From: Branchiostoma floridae
Lineage: Eukaryota; Chordata; Leptocardii; Amphioxiformes; Branchiostomatidae
Reading direction: 5' to 3'
Assembly (NCBI RefSeq): GCF_000003815.2
Contig: NC_049996.1
Coordinates: forward strand, 13,551,297 to 13,615,296
DNA: 64,000 bases
Below, piece by piece: positions 1 through 61,011 of this stretch. Below the pieces are notes generated by a model. The model saw only the letters and a program-made list of their open reading frames with translations, had not been told where the DNA came from and did no database searches. Every line of letters starts with the position of its first letter. Position 1 is the stretch's first letter. The position numbers and the translations under genes were made by a program.

Positions 1-388
1 CCAGTGACCACGAACCTCCAGTACCGCGCTGTTCCCAGGAACGCGCCGAACTCCTGGTACCGGTTCGTTCCTTCCTGTACGTTAGCAACGGACACGACAT
101 CCTCCCAGCTGTACGGACTCCCAACCTGCGAGTTTTCTAACTCGAAGTTTGTAATGTCATGCGTGATGTCTCCGTAGTTGCTGACTGCAATGCGGGTGAG
201 AGTTGTGGGCGCTGCGAGGTCCAGTACGATGTACCAGTTGTTGTAGTACTGACCCATGTCCCCTGGGTTCCAGTAGGTTTTAATGTCCCAATCCAAGGCC
301 TTTGTGGCATCGTATGTAATACCGTTACTGACCCAAGGAATTCCAGATGAGTTAACAACCCATGCCGAGTCCTGTTCCAACCATGCAC
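1..388 (-). CDS. Gene A: F5/8 type C (discoidin) domain exon, partial
   Basis: This exon encodes about 129 residues of an F5/8 type C / discoidin-like galactose-binding domain, which in this family mediates extracellular binding to carbohydrate, lipid or protein. The open frame reads ...AWLEQDSAWVVNS, then TYDATKALDWDIKTYW, WYIVLDLAAPTTLTRIAVSN and finally ARYWRFVVTG at the window edge. The A-x-D-W...W pattern and the late YWRF are hallmarks of the fold. The acceptor is tttag at 389-390. The exon begins with two bases that complete a split codon, so the preceding intron is phase 1. The 3' part of the exon lies outside the window. By strand, spacing and phase it is the ectodomain of the type II receptor whose membrane exon is at 2635-2786. 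One exon between this and the stalk exon at 2061 appears to be missing, because the phases (0 out, 1 in) do not match directly. Confidence 0.85.
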
Positions 389-2060
389 CTAAACAAGAGT
401 ATATAGAATCGTTAGACTTACTTACTCAGGCTTAATCGTTACTTACTTACTTACTTAATAGTTAGCGAGCTCTATTTAAAAGAGGAGCGTTCAAACTTGA
501 GCTTACACAGGAAATTTCAGCCTATCTAATGGTAGTAAAAATCTCGTACTTTTTCCTTACGCGAAGCAAATTAGGTGGCAATGATTCGTGTTTTGCTCCG
601 TACTTTTTACATGGAAATCATAGAACATAATCTTTCCAGACATATTCTGATGATACAGAAGTAAAAATGGTGTTCTTGTGTCAATGACATTAAAGTTACA
701 TTCCACACATTCTAAGAACATTCTTTAAATACATTATTGTGATCATCATGTTGCAGGCGACACCCAGTAACGTTAGGTAAGGGATAACGAAAAAAAAAGG
801 TGGACAATCGATCTGCAACCTGAGGTGTGAGGTCAAATTGTCTGATCACACTTCACCCTTCTTTTTCTCCCCACTTACCTTCTAATTTAGAAAAAACGAA
901 TGCCTGGAAAGTAATGACTCCAATGATTTGTAATTTGGAGGATATTGATAAAAGACTTCATACTATGAAGTTGTGCCTGAAAATCTGAGTTGTGCTTGTT
1001 ATTTCTTGGTGAGGCCAAGAACTTATTGAACCCCCCTCGTAACTCCATTAGTACCCAAAACGACGTGTTTAACTTCACTTCATGTGACCACATGGGTTCC
1101 GTTAAGACCCTAGCTGTATACGCCTAAGTGCGGTATCAGCATTTTCAATAATGGAAAAATGAGATATGTACAGGTGTAGACAACTATCTCCCACCGTTCT
1201 CGGTCGCTAATGCATGTTGCTTGTGTGGATTGTTTGTCTTCTTTTCTCGCCTTACGCTGGTCGCATTTGATGAAAGCTGGAGATTTAAAAAAATGATATG
1301 TACATCCTAATTATAAACCGGACAGACTTCCTTAACACAGTAAAGAAGATTACATTTCGTGGCCATTAGTACTAACCATACATTTTATGCAAGGAACCGT
1401 CCATTGACGAAGAAAGAAAAATAACTTAAAGAATAGATCGAAATGTCGAAAAGTGACACATCGTAAAAAAAGAAAGATTAAATGGATGGGGGATTAGGTT
1501 GGAAGATTTTCGGTTGTGGTGACCAAACTGTAAAATACTAAGACTATCTGATAGATGTGATAAGTACAGTTCACATGGCATTCAACAACATATAAGCCTG
1601 TGTTACCAACACCTTATACATAAAAACATGTCAGCAAACCGAAAACCTTCAAAGGGTATTTTGTCATGCAGGAACTGACAAGCCAATTGCCAGATACAAG
1701 ACCTACACCAGTACCAGTATATACATCAAATGTTGATATTACTTTGGGTATTATAGCTCTCATATTTAACAGTACTAGTGGCTCCAATAGATTCAAGGCA
1801 CGCAAGGGAAGACATTGTGTCAACTTGCTTAGCCTGCTGAAAGCAGACCTAAAGCACAGGGGCCGAACCCTTCCTACAACAGCAAAAGAAACTCCTGGAG
1901 CTAAGGGAGCTCGAAGGATGCAAAGCGCAGTGGAAAAGGATGAAACAAGACTGAATGCATCTACAGGACTTTTCAAAGGCTGTAGATGCAGAATGCAGTG
2001 AATGATGATGAGTGCTGGTATTGCTTTCCTAAATCCTTGGGGGTTAGTTGTCATTATTAC
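389..2060. other. Gene A intron region with a mariner-like relic
   Basis: No supported exon was found here. The region contains (ctta)n-like sequence at about 428-457 and the right-hand third of a mariner-like repeat at 735-1039, which closely matches 20780-21079. Open frames on both strands around 1614-2129 lack family similarity, apart from the small stalk exon at the right edge. A phase 0-to-1 exon needed to join the stalk to the F5/8 exon should lie here. Confidence 0.4.
735..1039. repeat. Truncated mariner-like non-autonomous element
   Basis: Sequence from the gtgatcat core to a right terminus ending CCCTCG followed by TA matches the right third of the complete element at 20185-21079. 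Shared landmarks are caggcgacacccagtaacg, gggataacgaaaaaaa and the inverted-repeat stretch around the two matching ttcatactatgaagttgtg segments. The left end is not present here, so the copy is truncated. Confidence 0.65.
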
Positions 2061-2132
2061 CTGAATGTACGCGATGGTTACATCATTGGCCGAAGCAGGG
2101 GTGACAGACTGAATGGCTGTAGTCGTCAAATC
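2061..2132 (-). CDS. Gene A: extracellular stalk exon (24 codons)
   Basis: This 72-bp open exon is bounded by an acceptor (ttacccag, minus strand) and a donor (CAG|gtaata). It encodes a Thr/Ser/Ala-rich linker starting DLTTTAIQSVTP. It begins and ends in phase 0. Length and phases are identical to the stalk exon of gene C at 32698-32769, and the composition is similar. The preceding membrane exon (2635-2786) ends in phase 0, so the join is in frame. It probably forms a juxtamembrane stem. The assignment rests on splice sites, phase and the paralogous exon, not on a recognisable domain. Confidence 0.55.
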
Positions 2133-2634
2133 CTGGGTAAAGAATAAAACATAATTTAAACGATAGTGATAGTAACACTATAACAACAAGAGTTCTGAGA
2201 GCTCATATCTCCAGGAAATATTCTGATATGCAAATGGTCACATCTGCATGACTTAGGATTTTCTTTGTAAACATTTATTTAACTTACACAGGTAACACTG
2301 TCGACAATCGAACCATCCCATTTCAATTCTTTTATAGTATTTTTAGAGTACTTTGCACTAGTACATTATGCTAATAACCAATTCATTTGGTATATACGTA
2401 TCTTCCACCAGCAACAAACTACATTCGTTACACGAGTCCTATCATGGAAACACCATAAACTTTCCTCAATAAATTTGCACATGTACATCTATGCCTAAGA
2501 TAACTACGACCTGCATTGTAAATACCATAAAAATCAGTTCGGGACCAGAGGGTATTTATCTATATAGGTTGTAAAAAAATAAGTTACAAAAATACTGACA
2601 TATTTGTGCATTGAAAGTAAGATACGACACTAAC

Positions 2635-2786
2635 CGTTTGGATGTCTGTTCCGTTCTCAGGTTTATAAGCAAGATGCATTGCCGTTAGACAACTAGATGC
2701 CGCCAGAAGTGCAGCTACAACAGCGAGGATAACGACTCGAAGTAGACAGGAGCGGGAACACACCATGCAACACATTTTGAATGAAC
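2635..2786 (-). CDS. Gene A: signal-anchor transmembrane exon
   Basis: The exon reads GSFKMCCMVCSRSC, then a hydrophobic run LLRVVILAVVAALLAASSCL, then HLAYKPENGTDIQT. A basic residue on the N-terminal side and no signal-peptidase context indicate a type II signal anchor with the tail inside. The Cys-rich start (CCMVCSRSC) could be palmitoylated. The acceptor taacag precedes a phase-1 start, and the donor ACG|gttagt gives phase 0. The pattern R-[GV]-x-I-[IL]-A... followed by PEN is shared with membrane exons of gene B (24836-24984) and gene C (33538-33686), so the three are paralogous. The N of ENGT is a potential N-glycosylation site just outside the membrane. Confidence 0.8.
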
Positions 2787-2906
2787 CTGTTACTGTTACG
2801 AAAAAAAAAAACAGTCGGCGTTAGAACACTACAACATATGTCAGTGTATGCTGTTTATGTTCTTATTTTATCATTAAAAAGGGTGACCCTGTATTAGGTT
2901 TTAGGT

Positions 2907-3624: not shown

Positions 3625-3858
3625 CTTCTTCATTCTGTCCACCAGACACGTACATGGGGTTGGTAAGCAAGCCAGAGGCGTGCCTTCGTGATTTAATGGG
3701 TAGTGTAGTGTTTTTCTTGTCCGCTGACTGTCGAAAAGTATGTCCTTGGTTTTCAATCCCAGCTGCGTCGAATGACTGATACACGTGGCTGGCAGGACCA
3801 TCAGCAGGAGTGCATTCGATTTCTGCTCCTTCGTCCATAGTAGACGCTGCTGGTTGTT
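3625..3858 (-). CDS. Gene A: cytoplasmic tail exon A1 (HVYQSF and NPMY motifs)
   Basis: This symmetric phase 1-1 exon of 77 full codons follows the acceptor tttgcacag and ends at the donor GAAG|gtactg. It carries two tyrosine motifs: DGPASHVYQSF, whose Tyr codon is 3779-3781, and LTNPMYVSGG, an NPxY motif of the kind that binds PTB domains or clathrin adaptors. A basic patch (KSRRH) lies between them. It joins in phase to the membrane exon at 2635-2786, giving EE-G-SFKM. An in-frame ATG at 3838 could also serve as a start if this were a first exon. However, the open frame and a good acceptor upstream of the ATG, and the homologous internal exons in genes B and D, favour an internal exon. It shares its flanking intron sequence (4090-4340) with exon A2. 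Confidence 0.8.
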
Positions 3859-4089: not shown

Positions 4090-4340
4090 ACTAGCCAGCG
4101 GGGGGCTTAAGGTGTCCTTCAGACAGGTGATAAATACATTTTGAATAATTCATATTTAATATAATGACCTTAGGGAAAACAGAAATGCCGCAAGAGATAA
4201 AAGTGACACGTGTCCTAACAATATACCGCCGAGGTTGATACCCGCTGTGCCTCCTACGTTTTGTCCTTAGGAAAGGCACGTTACACGACCTTCCTCACGT
4301 GTAAAATGGGTACCTGATTTCGGTCGGGATGGTAAAAGAA
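4090..4340. repeat. Diverged repeat with SINE-like segment, copy 1
   Basis: This stretch matches 17355-17610, beginning with gcggggggcttaaggtgt and continuing through a segment with gaggttgatacccgc (a B-box-like sequence) followed by ggaaaggcac...ttacacgacc and gggtacctgatttcgg. The second half resembles tRNA-derived SINE bodies of deuterostomes. The family assignment is from memory and tentative. The shared block next to exons A1 and A2 suggests that exon and intron were duplicated together. Confidence 0.5.
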
Positions 4341-6410: not shown

Positions 6411-6541
6411 TTAAAGGGGTTTTATATGTGCGAACACACAAAACTCAGGCAAAAATAACACTCCTTAAGGAGGCAAAGACAAAGGTAGATATGTTGGCAT
6501 AGTTTAGCTAGTTGCTACTGCGAGTGATATTTAATATGTAC

Positions 6542-6724
6542 CAGTTCGTTGGGACGAGCCATGTGCGTACATAGGGTTGATCAGCATGGCGCGGCTTACA
6601 GTACTAATCGCTTCCTTACAGGATGCTTCCTCATCATCATTGTTTTGATGACCAGTCTGTTGGGGGATGATGATGTCTTCTCCCTCAGCAGTATTGAATT
6701 CTGTCTCCGCGGCCTCTGGCATGC
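6542..6724 (-). CDS. Gene A: cytoplasmic tail exon B1 (NPMY motif)
   Basis: This is a symmetric phase 1-1 exon of 60 full codons with acceptor ccagcag and donor ACTG|gtacat. It reads GMPEAAETEFNTAEGEDIII, an acidic middle part (NNDDEEAS), and then MLINPMYAHGSS. The NPMY at the end is an NPxY-type sorting or adaptor motif, equivalent in position to that of exons A1 and B2. The exon has exactly the same length as exon B2 (183 bp), its counterpart in the tandem duplication. Because the length is a multiple of three and both phases are 1, it can be included or skipped without breaking the frame. Confidence 0.75.
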
Positions 6725-8383
6725 CTGCTGGGAACATAGAAGTTATAATGACTGATCGTTTCTGATAGTAGTGTGTGGTTTATTTAGAACTCAACGGTGC
6801 AGATTTACAAGATTCGCTATATTACGCCTTAGATGCAAAATATTTTTAAAAAATTGTAATGGTCGGTAGGTTTATCGTTGCCATCTTTTTCTGATACCTA
6901 ATAAAAAATACACGCCAAACGTCACACTTTACAGTTGTGCATATCTAAAACCATCTATCTATCTAAAGCTTTTTAGTTGCCAAAGTAAAAATAAAATCAC
7001 CTCTCCAGTGGAATTGTTCCTAAAAATTTTTGGAAGAAAGTGATATAACCCTTGAAGATTACAAAAAAAGTGCAGACGCTCTCGTCACGAGTCTTGAAAT
7101 CTTAGTTTAACACAAAATGAGGAGCAACTAATCACAAATCATGAGGCATCTAAGAAGTGATCAAATACCGATTTTTGCTTGCTTGCAAGCAAAGGATTAA
7201 AAATGTCGGTATAAAAGAGAGCATATAAGCGGCAAGCTAAAAACAAAAACTACTAGCCTTATACAAGTGCCACGCCTGTTTCTCATTTTGTCCTTCACAA
7301 GATTCTTCAAGCACAATCACCATAATTAGTGTTTTCTGTAGCTCGGCGCTCTCTGCCATTAACGATCAAACGTCGTGGGGTATAGCTTTTTATAAAAGCT
7401 CCGAAGCAATCATGCGGGGAGTAAGGTTTTGAAGTAACTCAATTGTTGTGCCAGACTAATAATTTGAAGATAAATAAAATTACAACATGCGGATTGGGTA
7501 AAATGTATTATGCATTGCCTTTAACGATTTCATAGGTTTCGTAAAAGTAAAAAGGCATATTATGTGTTTTTTTTTCAATTCATTTTCTTTTTCTTTGCCT
7601 TTCTTTCTGTCTTTTTTACTATAATTCTTCTATCTTTCGTTGTCCCCCTGAAGGCGTTTAGAAAGCAAATCTCGTGGCATCTGCTATCTCTACCACCATG
7701 CATCGTCCGTATGACCAAAATATGACAAAATCACTCTACTCCTTACTACACCCAGTTCATATAATCTCCAGAGCAAAACACTATAATGGAATTGTAAATA
7801 TAATATTGTGAGTTAAAATAATATCGTGACACATGTGAGAAAAAGGTGACGATAATTTTAGTCATGGCGCATAACAGCATTGTTGTTGCTCTATTGGCTA
7901 TCTAAACAATCATCCACCTACAAACATCACAAACCACAGAATGCATGCCTTCTTAGTTTGAATCATCAGGTAAATATTGGCTTTGCAAATAATGCCGACA
8001 TAAAAATGGATTTTTCTAAGTCATCATTTCCCCTACCTTGGGAAAAATGTGTTTCTATATCAACTAAATGTCACCTAACTTTCAGATACGGACGTTAGTG
8101 ACCCAAAGCATACAGTCTTGGTTTACAAATAGCCTAAATGTATGTATGTAAAACCTAAAGTTAATCATACCAAAGTTATCAGTGTAAATAAAGTCAGCTT
8201 GGCATACATTATCTTTACGTTCGATGCACTCTCATGTGTAAAAAATAGGCGGTCATGGGAGTCTGTATAAGAAAAAAAAGCACAAAAATAAATGATTATG
8301 TGTCAACCAAAAATGAGGTACTATGCGCAGATAGTGCTGTGGGTAAATGTCCTTGGCATCCAAGTCCCTAATGTTAAGTATTG

Positions 8384-11643: not shown

Positions 11644-12719
11644 CAAAGAAACAATAATACTTGGCTCATAATTGTTACCATCGCAAAGATTGCTTTCTGT
11701 GTCATTTGATTGTAAATGTCGATGTCAGTATATTTGCACATGCATATGGAAGTTTAAGCTTCAATTACCAGAAAATTAAAGAGTAAACATACATTGACAT
11801 CGGGCATACTCGTTGTAGAATAAAAACACATATACAGAAACAAAAACGTTAATTACGTGTATTTGACAAGATAGGAAACCTTTTTAAGGATACCCAACAA
11901 AACAATCTCAGATTCATGTATGACAAGAAAAGTAATTTGTTAATCATTAAGTTGTCCGAAAACTTATCTCTGGAATGTTTCTGTTTTGGACATCTGTCGT
12001 AAATGGAACGGAATATGAATTCGGAAGGAGCGAAAATTTCGGCAAAAAAATGCAGTCTTATTTGTTCAGATGCGCAATAAAACAATCACCGGTTCACAAT
12101 TCACGTATAGAATACCTTTATCGGTAACGGTCAGAATATGCTAACTTCGAATCTGTCCTAAAACTAATCCATGGAATATCTGTCGCGGATATGTCTCGTA
12201 AATGGAAAGAAAAGAAAATAGTATGAATTCGAAAACATGAAACGTCCCTGACACGTATTCGGAAGAACGGGAAATTCTATCCGTCCGGGCATGTGCTGAA
12301 ACATTTCATGACTCATGATATTCTGAGACATAATGAATTGAAAATGTCATCTGACAATGGCCCAGAAATAATGCACATCATGCTTCGTGCAAACTCCTAA
12401 TTTGTCCGGGTATTCCTTATCGAAATATATGGACCTTGGATATGTAAAGAATATAGAACATATCACGTATTCGGAGGCAAGAAACGTCAATGGCGCGTAT
12501 CTTGAAAAGCAGGAAAGTCTTATTTGTCCGGATACATAACAAGACAATTCCTGACTCATGATATTTCCAGATATGGGAAATATTGAACATCGTGCCCGGA
12601 CACAGTCCGGATATTTAGCATGTCCAAAAATATGTCAACTCCGACTTTGTCCGGAAATCACACCCTTTCGCACAGTGTTAGCTATTTGGTACTGGGAGTA
12701 ATATTTAGTATATAGGTAC

Positions 12720-12902
12720 CTTCGTCTGCAGTTTGTTGGGACGAGCCATGCTCGTACATCGGGTTGATCATGCCGCGGCCTCCGGTTTTGGAAATTGCAC
12801 CGTAGGATATTTCCTCATCATCATTGAGTGGAGGTCCAGTCCGTTGGGGGATGATAATGTCTTTTATCTCAGCGGAATTGAATTCTGTCTCCGCTTGCAT
12901 GC
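12720..12902 (-). CDS. Gene A: cytoplasmic tail exon B2 (NPMY motif)
   Basis: This phase 1-1 exon of 183 bp is the duplicate of exon B1, with acceptor gtaaacag and donor GAAG|gtacct. It reads MQAETEFNSAEIKDIIIPQR, an acidic stretch NDDEEISYGAIS, and then GMINPMYEHGSSQQ. Both copies keep an open frame, both splice sites, IIIPQ-TG, the acidic block and NPMY although their introns have diverged. That argues for selection on the protein. SYGAIS in this copy adds a tyrosine absent from B1. A CACTA-like transposon begins about 40 bp downstream of its donor. Confidence 0.75.
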
Positions 12903-14664
12903 CTGTTTACATATACAACGTACTAGTTATAATGATTAGCATGGTTTTTATTTTGTAATTGTTCCGCTTCCATAAATTACCTATGCAAAGAGTATAAAAG
13001 TCCCAATATGGAATAGACTTAAAATCATAGGTTTGAATCATCAACAGAGAAGAGATGGGTGTAAAAAAATTCGTGATGCAAGAAATACAAAAAGGTATTT
13101 GTCCACAGGCTAAGTTCTCTTTTAATCATTAAAAAAACGTTGACCAAACTGGGATTTTATGCTGCAGTGGCACAGAAAGCTGCAAGTGGTACTATAATCA
13201 AAATTGCTGTCCAAACACAAAAAAAATAATTTCAAAATGTCGTAATGGTCGGTAGGTTACTTGTTTACATCTTTTTTCGATACCTAATGAAATAATAACA
13301 CACCGAATATCTCAGTCTCACATAGCCATAACTATCGATCTATCTAAAGCTTCTTTAGTTACCAAAGCAAACCAAATCACCTTTCCAGTGGAATTGTTCC
13401 TGAAATGTTTGGACAGAAAGTAATATAACCCTTAATGATTAAAAAAAAAATGCAGACGCTCTCGTCACAATTCTTGGAATCTTGTTTAAACACAGATAGA
13501 GGAGCAATAAATTTTAAAAAAAATTATGAAACCACTAAGAACTGATCAAATACGGAATTGTTTCTGTTGTGAGTGATTGAAATGCCGGTATAAAGGTAGC
13601 ATACAACCGGCAAATTAAAAAAATATATCGGCCTCAAAAGTGACGCTGCTTGTTACTCATTGTGTCCTTCACAAGATGCACAATCAGAATAATTATTGAT
13701 TTCTGTACAGCGGCGCTCTCTGCTATAAACGACCAAACAGCGTAGTGTATGACTTTACAAAAGAAGCACTGAGCAATCATGCAGGGGATTATAGTTTTGA
13801 AGTAAATAACTAAATTGTTGTGCCAGACTAATAACTTATAATTTGAATATAAAAATATTAAAACATGCGTATAGGGTAAACCATATTACAGACGTTACCT
13901 GCAACAATTTTCCTAGCTTTCATAAATTTATATATATAATAAAATGGCTTATTGTGTTTGTTTTTTCTTTGCCTTTCTTTCTGTCTTTTTCATTGTATTT
14001 CTTCTATATTCATTTGTTGTACTAAAGGCCTAAGAAAATATAAAAAAAAATATAGTGGCATCTGCAATCTCTACTACAATGCATTTTATCCGTGGTCAGT
14101 TTGTCCAAGCATCACAAAATCGAGATAAAAAAAAAAATTCTACTCCTTACAATAACATGGTCCTATAGTATCCAGAGCAAAAAAAATTATAACGTAATTG
14201 CAAGTACTATATAGTAAAGTAAGATCATATTTTGACACATGGGAGCAAAAGATGATGATACAGCATTGTTTTCGCTCTTTTGGCATCCATCCACCTAAGT
14301 AACATCACCAACACAAAAAATGCATGATTTCTTATTAGTTTGTATAACCACGTAACTATGGGGTTTGCAAAATTATACCGTCATAAAAAGTTGACTTTTC
14401 TAAGTCATAATTTCCCCTTCCTTGGGCAAAATGTGTTTCTATATGAAAAAAAAAGGTCAGCTAACTTTCATTTACGGACGTAAGGGACTCAAAGCATACA
14501 GTTTTGGTCCACAGATAGCCTAAAACCTAAAGTCCTTTATACTTAAGTTATCAGTGTAAATAAAGACAGGTTGGCATACATAAAGTTTACATTCGATGCT
14601 CTCTCATGTGTCAAAAATAAGCGGTCATAGGAGTCTGTTTGAAAAAAAAGCACAAAAAGAGATT

Positions 14665-16896: not shown

Positions 16897-17091
16897 CTCG
16901 GACTTCAGCTTGTGGGGAGTTACCACATGCGTACATCGTGCTACTGCTCTCATGGCCAAAAGTCATAGTGTAAGTGTTGGTCACTTCTGCTTGACTTGTT
17001 CGTTCAACATTTCCGTTTGCAGATACGGTTTCCTGGGGGGTAGCAGCATCTTCTCTACCAGTGGAAGTGGATTTGTCTTCGCGTTTCATTT
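16897..17091 (-). CDS. Gene A: cytoplasmic tail exon A2 (NTYTMTF; NPxY lost)
   Basis: This phase 1-1 exon of 64 full codons has acceptor gatttaacacag and donor CGAG|gtactt. It reads EMKREDKSTST, then AEVTNTYTMTFGHE, then SSTMYACGNSPQ. The NTYTMTF tyrosine motif corresponds to HVYQSF of exon A1. The STMYACGNS segment aligns with TNPMYVSGG and INPMYAHGSS, but N-P is replaced by S-T, so the NPxY signature is lost here. The upstream intron shares the 250-bp repeat block seen upstream of A1. This is the first gene A exon visible. An initiating exon must lie further right, or translation may start at the ATG two bases into this exon. Confidence 0.7.
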
Positions 17092-21554: not shown

Positions 21555-22064
21555 NNNNNNNNNNNNNNNNNNNNNNNNNNNNNNNNNNNNNNNNNNNNNN
21601 NNNNNNNNNNNNNNNNNNNNNNNNNNNNNNNNNNNNNNNNNNNNNNNNNNNNNNNNNNNNNNNNNNNNNNNNNNNNNNNNNNNNNNNNNNNNNNNNNNNN
21701 NNNNNNNNNNNNNNNNNNNNNNNNNNNNNNNNNNNNNNNNNNNNNNNNNNNNNNNNNNNNNNNNNNNNNNNNNNNNNNNNNNNNNNNNNNNNNNNNNNNN
21801 NNNNNNNNNNNNNNNNNNNNNNNNNNNNNNNNNNNNNNNNNNNNNNNNNNNNNNNNNNNNNNNNNNNNNNNNNNNNNNNNNNNNNNNNNNNNNNNNNNNN
21901 NNNNNNNNNNNNNNNNNNNNNNNNNNNNNNNNNNNNNNNNNNNNNNNNNNNNNNNNNNNNNNNNNNNNNNNNNNNNNNNNNNNNNNNNNNNNNNNNNNNN
22001 NNNNNNNNNNNNNNNNNNNNNNNNNNNNNNNNNNNNNNNNNNNNNNNNNNNNNNNNNNNNNNNN
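21555..22064. other. Assembly gap (510 N)
   Basis: This is a run of N. Sequence to the right resumes inside a piggyBac-like repeat, which probably caused the assembly break. Confidence 1.
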
Positions 22065-22740: not shown

Positions 22741-22892
22741 TCAAACAACACATCCTGACCCACCGTTACAACAGTAAATCTTGCTGCCCGTCCAGCAGCA
22801 GCGCCCGTCCCCACAGTTGTCACCACGCACCTTGATGCCCGAGTCGCAGGCGCCCGGCTTGCAGAAGGGAAACGTGCCTTCCCAGTAGCACA
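22741..22892 (-). CDS. Gene B: terminal Cys-rich module
   Basis: This is the last coding exon of gene B, 49 full codons plus TGA (22741-22743), entered in phase 1 after the acceptor tgctgcag. It reads VCYWEGTFPFCKPGACDSG, then NCGDGRCCWTGSKIYCC, then NGGSGCVV. The eight-plus cysteines in a pattern C-x7-C-x4-C...C-GDG-x-CC-W-TG-x4-CC form a compact disulphide-rich module. I recall similar CGDG-CCWTG modules in invertebrate extracellular proteins but cannot name a Pfam family with confidence. It joins in phase to the sushi exon at 23546-23731, so it forms the outermost end of the receptor. The 3' end is embedded in satellite-like repeat units. Confidence 0.75.
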
Positions 22893-23545
22893 CTGCAGCA
22901 AGCACAGAAAACACAATCAAAACAACTTGAACCTAAAACAATATACTCAAACGTTGTTTCCTTTTAATACTTCAATAAAAGTTCAAGGGGACTCTGTGGA
23001 TTTCAACAAGGTTAATATTTATGATTCCGAGCAGAATTAATTTCACATGGGAGTGAAATAGGTCATTTGCATCAGGGACCACCAACCAACCCTCAACAAA
23101 GACGGGACCGATACCGAATGCTAAGCACCCTTGACCCTTTCTTGGCGCCACACTTCCGGTCTGGATGTGTAACTTAGGCTTTGAGTCATTTGATCATTAA
23201 CTTGATACGGATTAGAGGACTGATCAAAAGCTTCTTGGTAAGTGCTTTATGTTGTGTATGAATATAGGGTCTATATGTGGGATGTGTTACGTCCCTTTAA
23301 TTTTGTCTTTTGAATTAAACTTAACTGTCAAAGAATTAAATAAATAATATATTAACTATATGATAAATGTATTTCAATCATCGTTCTAGGATATATTTAT
23401 CAACAATATAAGATGAAAACGGAGACCCGGAAAAATTACATGCTTTTCAGGAAATTAATCTATTTCTAAAGCAATATAAGGAATGAGTTCGCTACCTTTA
23501 TCATTGGATATTGACTTATACCATAATGCACATGATATGGCTTAC

Positions 23546-23731
23546 CTTGACGTGTGCAAACCAGGTCCGACCCTAACCACCAGCCACCCGAGCTGCAGGT
23601 GCGGTTCCGAGATCCGCCGGCCAAGAAGTAGTCGCTGTTGCAGCTGTAGGTGCAGATCTCGCCCTCCGTGTAGGGGGTGTCACAGTCCGAGATACTGGCT
23701 ACGCTGAGGACCGGGGGGTTTGGGCACAGGC
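23546..23731 (-). CDS. Gene B: sushi (CCP/SCR) domain exon
   Basis: One complete sushi domain is encoded by a symmetric phase 1-1 exon of 186 bp, with acceptor cctctcag and donor CAAG|gtaagc. The four canonical cysteines are visible: LCPNPPVLSVAS, then GEICTYSCNSDYFLAGGS and NRTCSSGGWWLGSDLVC. The late Gly-x-Trp and x-W-x-G-S-D-L-V-C pattern is diagnostic. NRT is a potential N-glycosylation site. Sushi domains mediate extracellular protein binding, for example in complement regulators and adhesion receptors. The domain follows the stalk exon at 24524-24590 and precedes the Cys-rich module. Confidence 0.95.
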
Positions 23732-24523: not shown

Positions 24524-24590
24524 CTTTATCTGTCATTGACGTGTTTGGCTTGGATGTCTGGAGATCCCTGCTGGTCGTAGATAACACAAA
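24524..24590 (-). CDS. Gene B: stalk exon
   Basis: This 67-bp exon encodes 22 codons plus one base, rich in Ser/Thr/Lys (FVLSTTSRDLQT then SKPNTSMTDK). The acceptor is ttctatcacag and the donor AAAG|gtgaag. It enters in phase 0 and leaves in phase 1, which joins the membrane exon (phase 0 out) to the sushi exon (phase 1 in). NTS is a potential N-glycosylation site. Confidence 0.7.
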
Positions 24591-24835: not shown

Positions 24836-24984
24836 CTTATTGGGTTCTGCTTTATTCTCTGGTGCCGCAGCAAAATGGATACCGAATATAATTCCTACAA
24901 TAATCGAGGTTATCACCGAGACAGCGATGATGACGCCACGGAGTAGAGATGGACGTTGACAGTTGGAACAGATTTCTGTGGAAT
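24836..24984 (-). CDS. Gene B: signal-anchor transmembrane exon
   Basis: The exon reads DSTEICSNCQRPSLLRG, then a hydrophobic run VIIAVSVITSIIVGIIFGI, then HFAAAPENKAEPNK. It enters in phase 1 (acceptor ctgtgtcacacag-like, 24985-24986) and leaves in phase 0 (AAG|gtcagt). The layout D-S-T-[EK]-I-C-S...R-G-[VF]-I-I-A...A-A-P-E-N-[KE]-A-E is almost the same as gene C at 33538-33686, showing recent common origin. Basic residues on the N-terminal side predict a type II orientation. Confidence 0.9.
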
Positions 24985-25465: not shown

Positions 25466-25678
25466 CTTTGTTGTTTTTTTGTCGAAGCGCATCAGGTACG
25501 TAGTTTGGGTTGTTTGGCAAATCCGAGTCGTCCGTCTGTACATTGTCAGACGATACGTCATCTTTCTGTTGATCAGCTCGCTTTTCAAGGTCTGTACCGG
25601 CCTCAGGTAGCCGGTTAATGTAGTCTTCTTCGATAGTATGGTACACGTGATTGGCTGGGTCATTATGGCCGTTATCAG
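25466..25678 (-). CDS. Gene B: cytoplasmic tail exon (HVYHTI, DYIN, NPNY motifs)
   Basis: This phase 1-1 exon of 70 full codons has acceptor catagtag and donor AAAG|gtacaa. It begins ADNGHNDPANHVYHTIEEDY, continues INRLPEAGTD, and near its end has SDLPNNPNYVPDAL. Three tyrosine motifs are present: H-V-Y-H-T-I (ITIM-like, lacking a classical -2 residue), D-Y-I-N (pYxN, Grb2-SH2 type) and N-P-N-Y (NPxY, PTB type). It corresponds to exon A1 of gene A and to the exon at 59252-59386 of gene D. It lies on the cytoplasmic side of the membrane exon at 24836-24984. Confidence 0.85.
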
Positions 25679-26400
25679 CTACTATGATTTAGCAACAAAA
25701 GACAGTATACGACTCTTAAGAGGTCTAAGGGATGATAAAGATAGTAGGATTGCCCGAAATGTTGAAAAGCTACTCTTTTCATACAGTGCTTTAGATTACA
25801 TAAATACATTAAAGATACGTTTGTAAAGAAATGCATAATAGTTCAATTAGATGTCATATAACTCCAAAACTGCTTGTGCTAGTACATTAAGTCGTTTTGA
25901 AATTATGACGAGGTTGAATAAGACCCTCGTAATTTTATTCGTGTTCGTCGTAATTTTATCCAATCCTATAATATTAGAGTCTGCATCTACAACATGATGA
26001 ATTTGTTACGCAAATCATTTACATAGAGCTATAATAGATTGCAAACACATGTTTGCAAAATGAATGAAATCGACAAATACAATTTACAAATAAATGTTGC
26101 TAAAAACAATTATAAACAAAATTGATCCTGCTCAAAACGTCTTTCATAAACTGACGGGGTGAAACAATAGACCTAGTACCTAAAAGCCCTGAAGATTTCA
26201 TACAGGTATTACCAGGTCTCTGATCTCTAGTGTATAACAACATGTATTGTAAAGCTGTAGATATATTTGTGATATACTGTTAATTCTGTCTATATTGTAT
26301 AAACAAAAATTAAAAAGGTGCTCAAGCAACTGTTTGTCCTCTCTTCATGAATACACATAGTGACAAAGTTCAATGAAATAACGAAGCCCGAAAAACATAC

Positions 26401-26491
26401 CTGTAAGTACATTCTGTGTTGAAAATGTCTCTGCATCATAAATATCTCTACTGTAAGCCACCTGACGCAGGTCTTCTTCCTGTGTGCTCAT
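26401..26491 (-). CDS. Gene B: first coding exon
   Basis: The ATG at 26489-26491 opens a 91-bp coding stretch (MSTQEEDLRQVAYSRDIYDA and ten further codons) that ends at donor ACAG|gtatgt in phase 1, matching the next exon. Two tyrosines (AYSRDIYD) lie close together. Two diverged copies of this exon lie just upstream (26904 and 27143). This completes a six-exon model for gene B of about 260 residues: tail, membrane anchor, stalk, sushi, Cys-rich module. Promoter elements were not identified. Confidence 0.75.
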
Positions 26492-26814
26492 CGTCTGTTG
26501 AGTAACAGATGGAACAGCACAGTAAAACCAGAATAGACAACAAAAACTCTTAACCAAAACAACTTAATACGTCTGGTGTGAATTCCATACCAATGAGATT
26601 ATTAAAACATGTCATCTACAGCATCTAGGCATTGATGTAGACGACTTTAGAGCCAACACGGCAGTTAAAAAAAAAGCTAAAAGCCTTTTATGAAGAACAA
26701 ACAAGTAGAATTTACTTTACACCAAAAGTATTTTGTGATATTAGTGACGATGAAATGAGATCGAATGAGTATAATCTCATTTGTATGGAATTCACTCCAG
26801 ACGTATTACATTGT

Positions 26815-30279: not shown

Positions 30280-30432
30280 TTACGCCAAAAAGGTCTGACA
30301 AATAAACCCGCGTCTACGAGAGCATCCGAGGTCATTCCACATAGGATAGCCAGTACGACCTGGCCAGTAGTGTACACACAGTCTCGTTCGATGGGTCAGT
30401 CTACGGTTATTTGGCACTCCTGGATTCCACCC
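30280..30432 (-). CDS. Gene C: C-type lectin domain, C-terminal exon
   Basis: This terminal exon (50 codons plus TAA at 30280-30282) follows the acceptor gttttaacag in phase 0. It reads GWNPGVPNNRRLTHRTRLCV, then YPMWNDLGCSRRRGFICQT. Conserved elements are the P-N-N after the canonical E/Q-P-N/D position, the W-N-D motif and the last three cysteines of the fold. The Ca-ligand Glu of EPN is replaced by Val (VPN) while WND is kept, so classical Ca-dependent mannose binding is doubtful. An AATAAA on the minus strand (30262-30267) lies just past the stop and may be the poly(A) signal. Confidence 0.9.
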   Translation of the reverse strand, partial: GWNPGVPNNRRLTHRTRLCVHYWPGRTGYPMWNDLGCSRRRGFICQTFLA

Positions 30433-30949: not shown

Positions 30950-31236
30950 TTTGTAGTTGCGCAAGGCAGACCCATCTTCCCATTGCCACTGTCTTTTAAG
31001 AAGACGAAAGTAGTTATTGTCCTTCAGACCAATCCAAGGTTCGAGGTTGTGACCTTCCTTGCTGACAAGGTTTCTCAACGCCAGGTCCAACTCTTTTGTT
31101 TTAGGCATGGCTAGTGTAGCCCCCTCCCTCTCGCAGGCCTCCCTGGCGCCCCAGTAGTTCTTTTGTCGGAAATCGACCCGGATGCAGGTCGTGAGAAGGA
31201 GTTTGTATCCTGTTTGGCAGCCGTTTCGCGTCAAAG
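30950..31236 (-). CDS. Gene C: C-type lectin domain, N-terminal exon
   Basis: This 287-bp exon enters in phase 1 (acceptor tttgttacag) and leaves in phase 0 (donor AAA|gtaagt). It encodes NGCQTGYKLLLTTCIRV, then WGAREACEREGATLAMPKT, then EPWIGLKDNN and RQWQWEDGSALRNYK. The extra N-terminal Cys pair marks a long-form C-type lectin domain. The WIGL motif and A-C-x-x-x-G-A-x-L-A are canonical. It joins exon 30280-30432 as NYK-GWNPG, the usual join in this fold. Confidence 0.95.
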
Positions 31237-31909: not shown

Positions 31910-31967
31910 CTTTATTGGCCGTTGATTTATTAGACATTAGATGCACGCTGGTCGGAGGTACCCAAAT
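31910..31967 (-). CDS. Gene C: stalk exon 2
   Basis: This 58-bp exon, phase 0 in and phase 1 out, has acceptor ttatcatcacag and donor AAAG|gtgggc. It encodes IWVPPTSVHLMSNKSTANK. It supplies exactly the phase change needed between stalk exon 1 (phase 0 out) and the lectin exon (phase 1 in). NKS is a potential N-glycosylation site. The ending K-G resembles the gene B stalk exon (TDK-G). Confidence 0.65.
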
Positions 31968-32697: not shown

Positions 32698-32769
32698 CTT
32701 AGTCATGGCCGGCTCTGTCGTTGACACATTTGCCAGTAAAATTGCCGTCGTGAGATTATGACTGGCAGC
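32698..32769 (-). CDS. Gene C: stalk exon 1
   Basis: This 72-bp exon is phase 0 at both ends (acceptor ccggtag, donor AAG|gtgaga). It encodes AASHNLTTAILLANVSTTEP and AMTK, with NLT and NVS as potential glycosylation sites. It has the same length and phase as the gene A stalk exon at 2061-2132. Confidence 0.65.
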
Positions 32770-33537: not shown

Positions 33538-33686
33538 CAGGCTATGTTCTGCTTCATTCTCTGGTGCGGCCGTGAAAATAAGGCCTACAACAACTCCTGT
33601 AACAATCACGGCCATCACTGCAGCAGCTATGATGAATCCACGGCATAGATAGGAGCCGAAAATGATGGAACAGATCTTCGTCGAAT
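33538..33686 (-). CDS. Gene C: signal-anchor transmembrane exon
   Basis: The exon encodes DSTKICSIIFGSYLCRG, then FIIAAAVMAVIVTGVVVGL, then IFTAAPENEAEHSL. Its phases (1 in, 0 out) and length (149 bp) are identical to the gene B membrane exon, and the sequences align end to end. A single Arg before the hydrophobic run fits a type II anchor. Confidence 0.9.
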
Positions 33687-35589: not shown

Positions 35590-35875
35590 CTCCGGCATCT
35601 CCATTATCTGGGCGTGACAGCGCCTCTGGATCAGCTTGGTTTGACACTTGTGGTGGCGGCGGGAGATCTTCGTCACGAATTGTAAAGTACACATTCTGTG
35701 CTTCTTCGTACGTGTCAGAAATCTTACTTGACTCTTCTTTACAGCTGTGAGAAGGATTATTACAGTAGTGGATGCTAATTTTACGGGTTTGACAAGATTT
35801 GAACGGAGGGTTTCTTGTTTTTCCGTTGCTGGGCCCCGCGCCGGAGGCCCCAACTGGCTCCGCTTCTCCGTCCAT
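35590..35875 (-). CDS. Gene C: first coding exon, cytoplasmic tail
   Basis: The ATG at 35873-35875 (G at -3 and G at +4) opens 95 codons plus one base, ending at donor GGAG|gtatgt in phase 1, which joins the membrane exon at 33538-33686. The tail starts MDGEAEPVGASGAGPSNGKT and later reads ISDTYEEAQNVYFTIRDEDL followed by PPPPQVSNQ. N-V-Y-F-T-I matches the tyrosine motif of the other receptors. The PPPP run is a possible SH3/EVH1 ligand. No separate initiating exon is needed. The whole protein would be about 290 residues: tail, anchor, stalk, C-type lectin domain. Confidence 0.75.
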
Positions 35876-51498: not shown

Positions 51499-52319
51499 TT
51501 AATTTTGGGGCAAGATTGGTACAAGTGCATTTTTGTACACGACGAGGTGCCCGTCCCCACCTACAGCAACACGCAGTGGTGTCTTGATGTAGGCAACGGT
51601 GCAGACATGATCCCCCTCAGCCGTGAACATCTCCACCCGGTGGTTCACAGTATCAGCCACAATCACACGGCCCCAACCGTCCACACTGACTCCCCTGGGC
51701 CTATGAAGGCTCCCCGACCCAAGACCTTGACTACCAAAACTGGAGACGTAGACTCCATTCTTGTCATACTTGAGAACACGATGGTTATACCTGTCTGCAA
51801 TGAAGATGTTCCCTTTTCTGTCCACTGTGACAGACCGTGCATAACTCCCTTCTATCGTCCCAAACCTGCTCAAGTTACATATCGGCTTCCCATTCGTGTA
51901 AGCAGGACGGAACCACACTGCCTCCGCCTGGCTGGTTTTACCGGAACGTCGTGTTATTGTCAGTACGATTTTGTCGGAAATCCTGTCCACTGCAATGTCG
52001 TAGATTCTAAATCGGCCGTTGCACTTGTACGTGGCAATGACGTGGCCCTTTTTGCTATACTGAGCTACAGCGTTTAGGCTGCCGCCTCCCTGCAGAACGA
52101 CCCAAAGGGAGTTGTTGTTGCCTGTGGCTATACCGCATGGCTGCATGGCTGTAGGGAACCATCGAAGTTTAACACCCTTCATGCTGAAGACTTGAATTCT
52201 TTTGTGGTTCGGTTCAGTCACAAATATCTCATTATCCGAAGATACAGCCAGGCCTCCTGTTTTCGGGTAGTAGTCTGATACTAGTGGGATACTTACTCTC
52301 CCTGTCTCTTTCTTTTCTG
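51499..52319 (-). CDS. NHL-repeat protein, terminal exon
   Basis: An open exon of 273 codons plus stop follows an acceptor-like gtttcaccag on the minus strand. It encodes tandem NHL beta-propeller blades: GGLAVSSDNEIFVTEPNHKR then IQVFSMKG; SVTVDRKGNIFIADRYNHRV then LKYDKNG; GVSVDGWGRVIVADTVNHRV then EMFTAEG. The D-x-x-G-x-[IV]-x-V-[AT]-D-x-x-N-H-R-[VI] pattern is diagnostic. NHL propellers bind RNA or protein and often form the C-terminus of TRIM2/3/71-type ligases. No RING, B-box or coiled coil was found upstream within the window, so this is either the last exon of a larger gene with distant exons or an orphan propeller. A LINE fragment on the opposite strand directly follows upstream. Confidence 0.8.
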
Positions 52320-52339
52320 CTGGTGAAACAAAGGAATAC

Positions 52340-52675
52340 AGTTTAGTGCACGTGGCTGTAGAAACAAGAACCAGAGGTCACCAGTTGAAATTAAAAAGAC
52401 CCTTGGCGAAAACAAATACACGGCTATACTCCTTTCCGAATCGGGTCGTCAGCTGGTGGAACAGTCTCCCAGAGGAAGTAGTGATGGCACCAACTGTGAA
52501 CGGGTTTAAAATAAGATTTGACAAACACATGAAAGACCATCTTGTCGTATACAACTATAGGGCACTGGACCATCCCCTAAGACTGACAATGTCAGTTTCC
52601 AGAATTGAAGAGCAGGCCAAACTGGAGTGGATAACCCTACCGGACTGAAAAAACTCTACTCTACTCTGGTTAGTG
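52340..52675 (+). mobile_element. LINE C-terminal/3' fragment
   Basis: The open frame reads ETRTRGHQLKLKRPLA, then FPNRVVSWWNSLPEEVVMAP, then VNGFKIRFDKH, which is the typical post-reverse-transcriptase tail of non-LTR elements. It ends with a stop and a ctctactctactctgg microsatellite tail. It is 5'-truncated and belongs to a different clade from the element at 16063. Confidence 0.8.
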
Positions 52676-57630: not shown

Positions 57631-58392
57631 CTATACTTGTCTTTGAACAAATGCTGATGGTCTTATCATCATACGTGTTGTTTTCATATTGTAAGGTCGA
57701 GCTATAGCCCAATAAATATTATCCCAACGATAAGGGACTTTGGCTTCAATATAAGGACCATTCAGGTTACATATACCCGTATGTTCGTGCCACCAGCCTC
57801 CGCGTTTGCTTTCAACGTGAAACACCCGTCTGTTATGAGTATACTCAAAATCACCATCAGTATTAAGGTCTTCATGGTTAAGTGCATCCCCAGCCGTTCC
57901 TCTATAATCTCCAACGCTAAGCCGGTACCTGTCAAACGCGTTACTGATATTAAAATTACTGTATTGAGCATAAGCAGTCTTGTTATCCCAATCCTCCAAA
58001 TCAATTCTTAAGTCATAAGTATTCTGACTCACAATGTTGTATATGTTTTCTAACCCGAGCCAGAATTCACCGTTTACATAACCGAACCCGTCCCTGTAAT
58101 CATCCCAACTTTTCTCAAAACTCACACTACCGTTAACCCTACGCTGGATCACAGTCCAGCCACCCTGTCCAGTGTCCATCTCACACAGGACCCGGATGGA
58201 ATTCTTCATACCCATTGGCTGGATGCTGTAGACCCATGTGGTCATGTGACCTGTCGTGTAGACAGCAGCGCAGTCACAAGGAACTCGGATGGAATTCTCC
58301 ATACTCATTGGCTGGGTGCTGTAGACCACTGTAGTTACATGACCTGTAGTCACATGACCAGTGGCACAACCAAGGCTTGGCATTGTTTTCAG
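57631..58392 (-). CDS. Gene D: fibrinogen-related domain exon
   Basis: This terminal exon ends in a stop at 57631-57633. The start is placed at acceptor cttccacag (58393-58394), which gives phase 0 and follows the phase-0 membrane exon; this start is uncertain. The fibrinogen C-terminal domain is clear: DCAAVYTTGHMTTWVYSIQP, then VLCEMDTGQGGWTVIQRRVN, GFGYVNGEFWLGLENIYNI, then RGGWWHEHTGICNLNGPYIE and TRMMIRPSAF. Such domains bind acetylated or other glycans in ficolins, tachylectins and FREPs. The normal Ca-binding D-x-D-N-D and the following N-C-A Cys are not present. The early segment YTTGHxTTxVYSxQPMxM is duplicated just upstream. Confidence 0.9.
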   Translation of the reverse strand: MKTMPSLGCATGHVTTGHVTTVVYSTQPMSMENSIRVPCDCAAVYTTGHMTTWVYSIQPMGMKNSIRVLCEMDTGQGGWTVIQRRVNGSVSFEKSWDDYRDGFGYVNGEFWLGLENIYNIVSQNTYDLRIDLEDWDNKTAYAQYSNFNISNAFDRYRLSVGDYRGTAGDALNHEDLNTDGDFEYTHNRRVFHVESKRGGWWHEHTGICNLNGPYIEAKVPYRWDNIYWAIARPYNMKTTRMMIRPSAFVQRQV

Positions 58393-58518
58393 CTGTGGAA
58401 GTGTTGAAACTCTCGTCAAGTCCAGAACAGAGTAAGGAAGCATAAGCAAAATAATCAACAAAAAATTCAAGAACGTTACAATACATCTACCTTGTGGAAA
58501 GTTTAAAATTTGTTCCAA

Positions 58519-58676
58519 CACAAAAAAAAGACTAACCATAAATGTTCGGTCGAGAGCTCCGACCTTCGTCAGACAACTTCTGACGACTTCCGGAACATCA
58601 GAACAGCGAGTCATCTATTTGACTGGCGAAGGTCGGAGTTTTCGACCGAATATTTATGGTGAGTCTTCTTAGTGTG
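58519..58676. mobile_element. Hairpin MITE in gene D intron
   Basis: The arms aagactaaccataaatgttc...ccgaccttcgtcag and its inverse (ctggcgaaggtcgg...atttatggtgagtctt) pair over about 45 bp. The outer ends read CACA...TGTG, flanked by ttccaaca/ttcaaaca, a possible 8-bp target duplication with one mismatch. There is no coding sequence. Confidence 0.75.
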
Positions 58677-58768: not shown

Positions 58769-58769
<1 letters not shown>

Positions 58770-58772
<3 letters not shown>

Positions 58773-58981
58773 GTGGCCCTTTGCCTTCACATCCTGTGTT
58801 AGCAAAGTGAAGGCAATAACGGCAAAGATCGCGCTGACGACGACAGTAGTGAGTAAAGCCGTGGTGCAAACGAGGCAGAGACGTGAATTCTTCACCAGTT
58901 GACGCATTTGCTTAAAGACGTTCCTGCTCTCATTGTCACCTGCCTTTCCATCATTGTCACCATTGTCCGTACTGCATCGTT
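58770..58981 (-). CDS. Gene D: transmembrane exon
   Basis: It enters in phase 1 (acceptor atattttag) and leaves in phase 0 (CACAAG|gtatat). It encodes an Asp/Asn-rich start (ERCSTDNGDNDGKAGDNESR), then QMRQLVKNSRLCLVC, a hydrophobic run TTALLTTVVVSAIFAVIAFT and LLTQDVKAKGHK. Three basic residues on the N-terminal side predict a type II anchor. Phases match the membrane exons of genes A-C but the sequence is more distant and lacks PEN. Confidence 0.85.
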
Positions 58982-59251: not shown

Positions 59252-59386
59252 CTTGTAGATGTTGAATTGCACGTTTGTTTCTGCACACATTTGTAAGTTG
59301 ACCAAGCGAATCAACGTACGTGTAGGTGTGGTCATCCGGGTCATCAACAGATGGTAAAGGACACTGATAACCATCGTCATTGTGTT
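59252..59386 (-). CDS. Gene D: cytoplasmic tail exon (HTYTYV motif)
   Basis: This phase 1-1 exon of 44 full codons, acceptor attaatag and donor CAAG|gtcagt, reads EHNDDGYQCPLPSVDDPDDH, then TYTYVDSLGQL and CRNKRAIQHLQ. D-D-P-x-x-H-T-Y-T-Y-V aligns with N-D-P-x-x-H-V-Y-H-T-I of gene B and D-G-P-x-x-H-V-Y-Q-S-F of gene A, so these exons share ancestry. Confidence 0.8.
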
Positions 59387-59855: not shown

Positions 59856-59963
59856 CACTGGACTGTGGCTCTTGCTTCAAAGCGTCTTCCGATTCCGCGC
59901 TCACAGCACTCGTTGCCTGGTGATTTGTTTGGTTGTGTTGACCGGACGATGATGCTTCAGCTC
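59856..59963 (-). CDS. Gene D: cytoplasmic linker exon
   Basis: This 108-bp phase 1-1 exon has acceptor ttttttaaag and donor AGTG|gtacgt. It encodes AEASSSGQHNQTNHQATSAV then SAESEDALKQEPQSSG. It is low-complexity, Ser/Gln/Ala-rich and without tyrosine. It can be skipped without breaking the frame. Confidence 0.65.
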
Positions 59964-60156
59964 CTTTAAAAAACAGATAGCGTGTTATAATTCTTGAGAG
60001 AACATGCGTAATTACTCCGTTAATAGTTTCATCAGGTTGGTAGATCAATCAAACAAATTCGCCTTTGTTACGTACACAGCATTCTTTTGATTATTCCGTA
60101 GAAGAATCGACGACAAAAGACTTCTTCAGAATAATTGTGCAAAGGGCTGTGTAATA

Positions 60157-60384
60157 CCCCTGTCACAGTATCCACGATCTCCTGGCGTATCGATGAAATA
60201 TCGGCCATGTATAAGATCGGTAGAGGGTTGCGCGTATTTTTCACATGAAAACCATCCCTGTCACATATAAGCCTTACTTTGTACCTTGTAAAACTGTTGT
60301 GCAATAAAGGTCTTATTATAAGCAAGGCTCGGGCGATCGCCGCAGAATCGTCGTCCGATCGATTTTCGCCAAATGTGACAGGGG
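60157..60384. mobile_element. Short inverted-repeat MITE in gene D intron
   Basis: The ends CCCCTGTCACA and TGTGACAGGGG are perfect inverse complements enclosing about 206 bp. The outer flanks read taata and cataa, so no clean duplication is seen. Open frames through it are not coding. Confidence 0.6.
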
Positions 60385-60614
60385 CATAACGAAGAAGACT
60401 TTGTTCAATATGCAATCAATATTTTACCTACTGCCTGTTTAATTAGGCCGAAGCATATTACTGAAACTGAACATCGAAATACCTTTATCGTGTCCTTTTT
60501 TTAGTTAAGTTTGAAATGAAAGTATGACATTATACAACAAAATATGGAAAACATGTAAGCAATGTATTTTGACTCATAAGTAACTGAAAAAGATTGATTA
60601 ATCTCATCTCTTAC

Positions 60615-61011
60615 TTGGGTTTTCCGTCGCAAAATGTGTATCCGTAGGATATTCATTTTCGATTTCTGAGCTTTGTCCGTTATCTTGAGTACGATCTTCG
60701 TCACAAGGGGCAGCCGCAACGTACGATTCCGACTCACTCTGTTGCAAGGACGTCATGTTGTTATATGCTTCAGACAACCCTTGATCTAAGTGTAAATCTT
60801 GAGTACGATCTTCGCCAAAAGAGGCAGCCGTAACGTACGATGCCGACTCACTCTGTTGCAAGGACGTCATGTTATTATATGCGCCATACACCATCCGGTC
60901 TGAGTGTAAATCTACATCATGTCCTTCGTACAGTTTACCCTCCGCCTGCATTTCACTAGTATTTGCCATTGGCTCACCAGTATGGGCATCTGAACAATTT
61001 ACAAACTCCAT
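60615..61011 (-). CDS. Gene D: first coding exon with duplicated YNNM motif
   Basis: The ATG at 61009-61011 opens 132 codons plus one base, ending at donor CCAA|gtaaga in phase 1. The tail starts MEFVNCSDAHTGEPMANTSE. It contains an internal tandem repeat: GAYNNMTSLQQSESASYV then ...EDRTQDL, followed by EAYNNMTSLQQSESESYV then ...EDRTQD. YNNM combines the pYxxM (PI3-kinase p85 SH2) and pYxN (Grb2 SH2) consensus sequences, as in the co-stimulatory receptor tail of CD28. Further tyrosines follow in ASYV/ESYV and NEYPTD. With the other four exons this makes a type II receptor of about 500 residues. Confidence 0.8.

Follow-up and report, generated by a model that had tools for sequence, protein, structure and literature searches.

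Introduction

In vertebrate paired receptors, similar ectodomains carry different tails. Here we describe four candidate receptor genes, designated A to D, on the minus strand of a 64,000-nucleotide stretch of the genome of the lancelet Branchiostoma floridae (C18:13,551,297-13,615,296, where C18 is contig NC_049996.1; the whole stretch is referred to as the window). The two halves of these receptors likewise appear to evolve separately, but with the arrangement reversed, similar inner halves being combined with different ectodomains. The mammalian natural killer (NK) gene complex, as described in PMC2704933, consists of clustered type II receptors with a C-type lectin-like domain (CTLD) and is similar in this respect, whereas the genes studied here have a tail of several phase-1 exons, and some of them carry F5/8C, sushi, or fibrinogen modules. 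The exon order of genes C and A follows the NK-complex arrangement (NH2-terminal tail, one membrane helix, COOH-terminal CTLD, clustering), a likeness of arrangement only, with the topology being predicted.

Extreme exon shuffling, including that of phase 1-1 exons, is known in lancelets and is described as faster than in the other metazoans compared (passages of PMC4284660). The present locus resembles the domain combinations reported there in its phase 1-1 exons, in the addition or replacement of recognition modules, and in fast turnover; it differs, as far as those passages go, in that a common pool of membrane and tail exons stands behind changing ectodomains. The shuffling mechanism is already known from that source, and the additions made here concern gene D and the inner side that stays constant. 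A tyrosine-phosphorylated receptor and an Lck homologue have also been described in amphioxus (passages of PMC8211107). The amphioxus receptors BbLcLRR, which acts through phosphorylated tyrosines (same passages), and FrLRR, for which an exon-shuffling origin has been proposed (passages of PMC10199209), are similar to this extent, the likeness being one of description only, but they differ in having leucine-rich repeat ectodomains. Among the matches listed from the open-licence literature, no title or abstract opening concerned this cluster, which does not imply that such work is absent.

Results

Exon phases were read directly from the DNA sequence, domains were called with Pfam, and splice sites were scored in bits with a simple matrix. 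The similarity of exon pairs was judged with 1000 or 2000 shuffles, those of membrane exons keeping the hydrophobic core apart from the flanks. The genome searched comprised 513,431,437 bases in 431 contigs; labels such as L034 denote genome loci outside the window. On the basis of these data we consider it fairly probable that genes A to D encode type II single-pass receptors of a family centred on C18, with a common inner plan to which either a default CTLD or changed modules are attached. The plan would consist of a cytoplasmic tail that carries tyrosine motifs and is encoded by at least one phase-1 exon, followed by a membrane exon of phase 1-0, stalk exons (0-0, 0-1), and a CTLD encoded by two exons. 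Gene C would represent this plan:

35590..35875, minus strand: first coding exon C1, the whole tail; ATG at 35875; ends in phase 1; contains NVYFTIRD
33538..33686, minus strand: membrane exon, phase 1-0
32698..32769, minus strand: stalk exon 1, phase 0-0
31910..31967, minus strand: stalk exon 2, phase 0-1
30950..31236, minus strand: CTLD exon 1, phase 1-0; Pfam 2.4e-8 (Lectin_C, 30938-31435)
30280..30432, minus strand: CTLD exon 2, stop included; WND kept, VPN at the EPN/QPD position

Gene C appears to be complete in the window. Spliced as drawn, its six exons form a single open frame of 334 codons from the ATG at 35875 to the stop at 30280, and its CTLD scores 35.1 bits against a curated cut-off of 22.6. 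Locus L037 contains counterparts of CTLD exon 1 (77% identical) and of C1 (61% identical), and C18 has copies of the membrane exon (73% identical) at 7.994 Mb and at 8.015 Mb. Stalk exon 1 has similar exons in L037, L034, and L038 (0/2000 shuffles each), as does stalk exon 2 in L036 and L034 (0/2000 each) and in L035 (4/2000). The ratio of nonsynonymous to synonymous substitution rates (dN/dS) between gene C and L037 was 0.35 for the tail and 0.37 and 0.38 for the CTLD exons; the value for the CTLD relative to L035 was 0.33, and those for the membrane exon were 0.49 relative to L020 and 0.52 relative to gene B. Gene C thus looks maintained, with comparisons for gene A being less clear.

The membrane exons of genes A, B, and C are, by sequence comparison, one family. 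The pairs B-C and A-B were each matched by 0/2000 shuffles, and the alignability of all three exons claimed in the initial annotation was confirmed, with the pair A-C alone being weak (248/2000). A genome search with the gene B membrane exon yielded 17 matches among 17 candidates, including itself, 10 of them on C18, and that with the gene C exon yielded 15 matches among 16 candidates; these counts are lower bounds, given that the gene A exon itself was returned by neither query. The frame of all 17 matches fits an acceptor in phase 1 and a donor in phase 0, with more than one candidate site in several of them. A profile of the 17 exons scored gene A at 28.8 bits (0/1000 shuffles) and a gene at 5.1 Mb, referred to as gene E (C18:5.106-5.126 Mb, plus strand), at 22.8 bits (2/1000), and members that were left out in turn (L033, L029, L024, B, and C) scored 44.8-87.1 bits versus 19.8-32.7 for the best shuffles. 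In genes B and C an arginine precedes the hydrophobic stretch and acidic residues follow it; the DST-x-I-C-S start previously proposed as a signature is present in these two genes and is lacking in A and D. Divergent pairs of membrane exons approximately 16-17 kb apart were also observed at 5.08/5.10 Mb and at 12.986/13.003 Mb of C18, the latter two exons being nearly identical.

For 9 of the 15 membrane-exon matches outside the window, the next 10 kb downstream were examined. Seven of these loci contain a CTLD of the gene C type (L034, L035, L036, L037, and L038, 59-77% identity; L041, 60%; L046, 52%). L042 has a CTLD of another kind (Pfam 9.9e-7), and L040 has an exon that is CTLD-like by eye but unmatched in Pfam at E 0.01; the stretch around it contains 3,792 N. 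The outer half is thus mostly unswapped among the loci followed, and its default would be a C-type lectin. The combination of EPN or QPD with WND is a sugar-binding motif. Alignment of seven CTLDs shows the EPN/QPD position to be VPN in C, TPD in A, GPD in L037, QPD in L035 and L038, EPN in L041, and QPN in E, and WND is kept in six, including C and A, with WDD in the other; the unaligned L046 has WAD. If the motif has this meaning here, ligands would differ among these CTLDs, and those of genes C and A may lack sugar binding of the usual kind. The Pfam Lectin_C model had at least 150 matches in the genome (150 scored of 1565 candidates), consistent with an extensive set of lectins.

Gene A departs from the plan by the presence of an additional module:

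16897..17091, minus strand: tail exon A17k, phase 1-1; STMY near its end
12720..12902, minus strand: tail exon A12k, phase 1-1; NPMY; 64% identical to A6k
6542..6724, minus strand: tail exon A6k, phase 1-1; NPMY
3625..3858, minus strand: tail exon A3k, phase 1-1; HVYQSFD and NPMY
2635..2786, minus strand: membrane exon, phase 1-0; alternative acceptor at 2792
1..388, minus strand, continuing to -64 outside the window: F5/8C exon, phase 1-1; Pfam 1.6e-7 (3-425)
L009:6903-6617 and 6395-6243, minus strand: two CTLD exons that follow the F5/8C exon, outside the window

The first CTLD exon of gene A has 287 bases, the length of that of gene C, and a Lectin_C match of 1.1e-6 (29.8 bits, with the same curated cut-off); the second has 153 bases and contains the stop. 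They are 57.8% and 62.5% identical, respectively, to the two exons of gene C, and no membrane-exon match is located between them and the F5/8C exon. The ectodomain of gene A is thus probably F5/8C plus CTLD, and the F5/8C exon is probably a symmetric 1-1 insert before the CTLD, an addition rather than a replacement. No stalk exon was identified in gene A. Each of its tail exons is preceded by an acceptor AG (scores of 3.8, 4.3, 10.6, and 7.0 for the 17k, 12k, 6k, and 3.6k exons). In shuffle tests of 45 pairs of window tail exons, A12k and A17k each resembled A6k (0/1000) and A6k resembled A3k (1/1000), with no similarity between A17k and A3k (938/1000). The window blocks 6494-8297 and 12667-14667 contain duplicated tail exons together with noncoding flanks, their DNA being approximately 73-75% identical.

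In gene B, the place of the CTLD appears to be taken by other exons:

26401..26494, minus strand: first coding exon B1; ATG at 26491; ends in phase 1
25466..25681, minus strand: tail exon B2, phase 1-1; HVYHTIEE and NPNY
24836..24984, minus strand: membrane exon, phase 1-0
24524..24590, minus strand: stalk exon, phase 0-1
23546..23731, minus strand: sushi exon, phase 1-1; Pfam 1.5e-5 (23469-23843)
22764..22892, minus strand: Cys-rich exon, phase 1-1

The Cys-rich exon had no Pfam match at E 0.1. A search of 17.1k-22.7k for a CTLD of gene B, with the gene C CTLD as query and open reading frames of at least 18 amino acids, found none at E < 0.5; a 510-base gap at 21555-22064 lies inside this region. 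The stalk exon showed similarity to that of L034 (13/2000), with values of 88/2000 for L036 and 252/2000 for gene C. Tandem copies of B1 are located at approximately 26835-26958 and 27069-27199 (block 26417-27412); a counterpart of the donor at 26401 was seen in only one of the copies, and in neither of these two.

Gene D contains a fibrinogen domain:

60615..61011, minus strand: first coding exon D1; ends in phase 1; two copies of AYNNMTSLQQSES-SYV
59856..59963, minus strand: tail exon D2, phase 1-1
59252..59386, minus strand: tail exon D3, phase 1-1; weak acceptor; DDPDDHTYTYVD
58770..58981, minus strand: membrane exon, phase 1-0
57632..58392, minus strand: fibrinogen-domain exon with stop; Pfam 1.8e-53 (Fibrinogen_C, 57634-58614); start at 58392 in phase 0, or at 58343 or 58250 in phase 1

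No CTLD was found by Pfam in the ectodomain exon of gene D. Comparison of its membrane exon with those of A, B, and C gave 31/2000, 194/2000, and 1125/2000 shuffles, respectively, so that kinship was not established. The start of the fibrinogen domain is partly duplicated (window 58181-58350, 82% over 77 bases).

All ten tail exons of the window end in phase 1, seven being 1-1 and three beginning with ATG, and the membrane exons of all four genes are compatible with phase 1-0. When joined, the exons from tail to membrane read open in A (12k, 6k, and 3k exons), B, and D. The donors of six of the ten tail exons (A17k, A12k, A6k, A3k, B2, and D2) start with GTAC, possibly a trace of a common origin.

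The tails of A, B, and D are linked by gene E, because this gene joins tail exons of the D, A, and B types before a CTLD. Within the window there were hints of such links, to be read against the 45 tests, in the pairs A3k-D3 (1/1000) and A3k-B2 (4/1000). In 33 comparisons between gene E and window tail exons, E1 resembled D1 (0/2000); E2 resembled A12k and A3k (0/2000), A6k (2/2000), and, weakly, A17k (106/2000); and E3 resembled A3k and B2 (0/2000) as well as D3 (1/2000, over 14 residues). No relative of D2 was found among these pairs (999/2000 with E2). Past its tail exons, gene E has a membrane exon and a stretch rich in Thr and Ser, along with a CTLD that shares 56% and 53% identity with the two exons of gene C. 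The E3 donor reads GTATCCTTT at L044 ~4165-4195 (C18:5.1219 Mb), which we take to resemble a U12-type intron; the B2 donor does not read so. A genome search with D1 yielded seven matches at five loci, including itself, all on C18, with D1-like exons at 2.449, 12.964, and 13.440 Mb; the D1-like pieces at 13.44 Mb are weak (E 0.006 and 0.47) and are followed by an E2-like exon (64% identical). Because D-type tail exons at 5.1 Mb precede a CTLD, the fibrinogen domain of gene D looks like a real change of ectodomain on a CTLD-associated tail type, provided that the 5.1 Mb stretch is one gene.

NPxY is present in A (three exons), B, and E; three such motifs were reached by none of 5000 shuffled gene A tails, and the single ones in B and E had P values of 0.03 and 0.02, respectively. 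A, B, C, D, and E each contain a single instance of the pattern [HN][VIT]Yxx[IVF]x?[DE] (per-gene P values of 0.0004-0.006). D1 contains two YNNM motifs within its internal repeat, and E1 lacks YNNM. We presume these motifs to be SH2- or PTB-type sites. The pattern of the immunoreceptor tyrosine-based inhibitory motif was found once (ISYGAI in A12k) among the 13 tail exons of the window and the 5.1 Mb gene.

With regard to other features, an exon for an NHL-repeat protein is located between genes C and D (51502-52377, minus strand, Pfam 1.6e-20), and a piece of a DDE_1 transposase at 45851-46261 (minus strand, Pfam 1.4e-9). An Rfam scan of the window yielded nothing at gathering scores.

Discussion

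Our data partly confirm the initial annotation as an observation and partly support its interpretation. It proposed one exon grammar for four genes, and the phases agree (1-1 for tail exons, 1-0 for membrane exons, 0-0 and 0-1 for the stalk of gene C, 0-1 for that of gene B). The module types F5/8C, sushi, C-type lectin, and fibrinogen were borne out by Pfam, the Cys-rich exon being without a match. The claim of four different ectodomains did not stand, given that gene A also carries a CTLD; the set is F5/8C plus CTLD, sushi plus Cys-rich, CTLD, and fibrinogen. The single inside half attributed to all four genes was upheld for the tails of A, B, and D through gene E, but not for the tail of gene C or the membrane exon of gene D. 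The proposed search for further membrane exons revealed 15 more places, and the ectodomains there were CTLDs of the gene C type in 7 of the 9 loci followed, with a CTLD of another kind and a CTLD-like exon in the remaining two, hence mostly unswapped. The idea of a shared tail family with swapped modules is thus partly supported: the inner half recurs across the genome, to an extent that could not be gathered from the window by itself, and gene D looks like a case of change, but the outer half is mostly a CTLD at the loci followed. Immune or adhesion function, signalling, and the comparison with NK receptors would each be an inference from sequence.

Starting from the common plan, the phase-1 intron ahead of the CTLD of gene A would have received a 1-1 F5/8C exon, 1-1 sushi and Cys-rich exons would stand in the place of the CTLD in gene B, and gene D would have a fibrinogen domain behind a tail whose exon types elsewhere precede a CTLD. 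Such changes would most likely have arisen as symmetric 1-1 exons were shuffled and duplicated in tandem. The outer modules may bind glycans or microbial or cell surfaces. Binding may lead to phosphorylation of tail tyrosines (NPxY in A and B; Y-x-x-[IVF] in all four genes; two YNNM in D), and the phosphorylated tail may then recruit SH2 or PTB proteins for uptake or signalling.

Several points weigh against this model. The splicing of exons as drawn is inferred from sequence, with weak acceptors (0.8-3.8 bits) at 59386, 25681, 33686, 58981, 24984, and 17091 and a donor inside D1 at 60978 (10.1 bits) that scores higher than that used at 60615 (7.2 bits), and the assignment of the gene E exons to one gene would follow from their order and phase over 20 kb. 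The tail of gene C did not differ significantly from chance in comparison with other tails (B2-C1, 60/1000; A6k-C1, 32/1000; 45 pairs) or with gene E. The membrane exon of gene D scored 9.4 bits against the 17-exon profile (11/1000), which does not establish it as a member of the family, although the phases agree; seven of the 17 matches to the gene B membrane exon are weak (E > 0.01); and the sample of ectodomains covers 9 of 15 membrane exons outside the window, with the CTLD of L036 cut short and, at 18 bits, under the Pfam cut-off. The Yxx[IVF] pattern was picked post hoc, four of the five tail exons that bear it (those of A, B, D, and E) are related, and the gene C relative in L037 does not fit it. 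A reading of the tails as hemi-immunoreceptor tyrosine-based activation motifs was dropped, with counts of acidic-tyrosine YxxL-like motifs being no higher than in shuffles (P = 0.12-0.46). The D1-like match at 12.964 Mb contains a stop. Finally, dN/dS was high for A12k-A6k (0.81), for the CTLDs of C and A (0.81), and for the membrane exons of C and L026 (0.72), and some copies may therefore be loosely constrained.

These values, for three pairs, would also fit a partly decayed cluster, in which duplicated exons and some genes would be pseudogene remnants and no swapped receptors would be made. The two B1 copies without a donor counterpart, a B1-like exon at 7.988 Mb beyond which the following 14 kb contain neither a membrane nor an ectodomain match, and the failure to find a CTLD for gene B are in keeping with such decay, but the single open frame across the six exons of gene C and the dN/dS of approximately 0.35-0.38 for its tail and CTLD relative to L037 are not, and we consider this explanation unlikely. 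We think it similarly improbable that gene D, as a receptor with a fibrinogen domain, merely adjoins a CTLD cluster of A to C to which it has no kinship. The kinship of its membrane exon to those of A to C was not established, and approximately 22 kb with the NHL-repeat exon and the transposase piece separate it from gene C; its D1 and D3 nevertheless resemble E1 and E3 ahead of a CTLD, and all five loci that match D1 are on C18, that at 13.44 Mb continuing with a tail exon of the A/E2 type.

A more serious contender, if still not the reading we would choose, is that A17k, A12k, A6k, and A3k each start from their own ATG and serve as alternative first exons, which would provide a single ectodomain with several tails instead of one long tail. 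In each of them an in-frame ATG lies a short distance past the acceptor, and each closes in phase 1; the blocks at approximately 6.5-8.3k and 12.7-14.7k were duplicated with their noncoding flanks; on the other hand, the AG acceptor before each exon is as in inner exons, and the 12k, 6k, 3k, and membrane exons are open when joined. With regard to function, fibrinogen, F5/8C, and sushi modules are also found in adhesion proteins, and the sequence itself holds nothing specifically immune, so that the receptors might serve cell adhesion or development instead of immunity. We regard this possibility as rather doubtful; the over-representation of CTLD genes among the dispensable genes of two lancelets, described in passages of PMC12373286 for CTLD genes in general and not for this family, fits defence better.

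Under our preferred model of a common inner plan, the constant side of the receptors is visible in a membrane exon family at 17 places plus genes A and E and in a few types of tail exon, and the outer end varies at two scales, that of the sugar-motif position of the lectin and that of the whole module. The family would provide a testable case of receptors that keep their signalling end and change their recognition end. More tentatively, C18 might harbour a modular system that distributes a phase 1-0 membrane exon and pooled tyrosine tail exons of phase 1 over its genes and combines them either with the CTLD as default or with captured modules (F5/8C, sushi plus Cys-rich, fibrinogen), with alternative use of the four tail exons of gene A. 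If this were true, one recognition domain could speak through several signalling tails.

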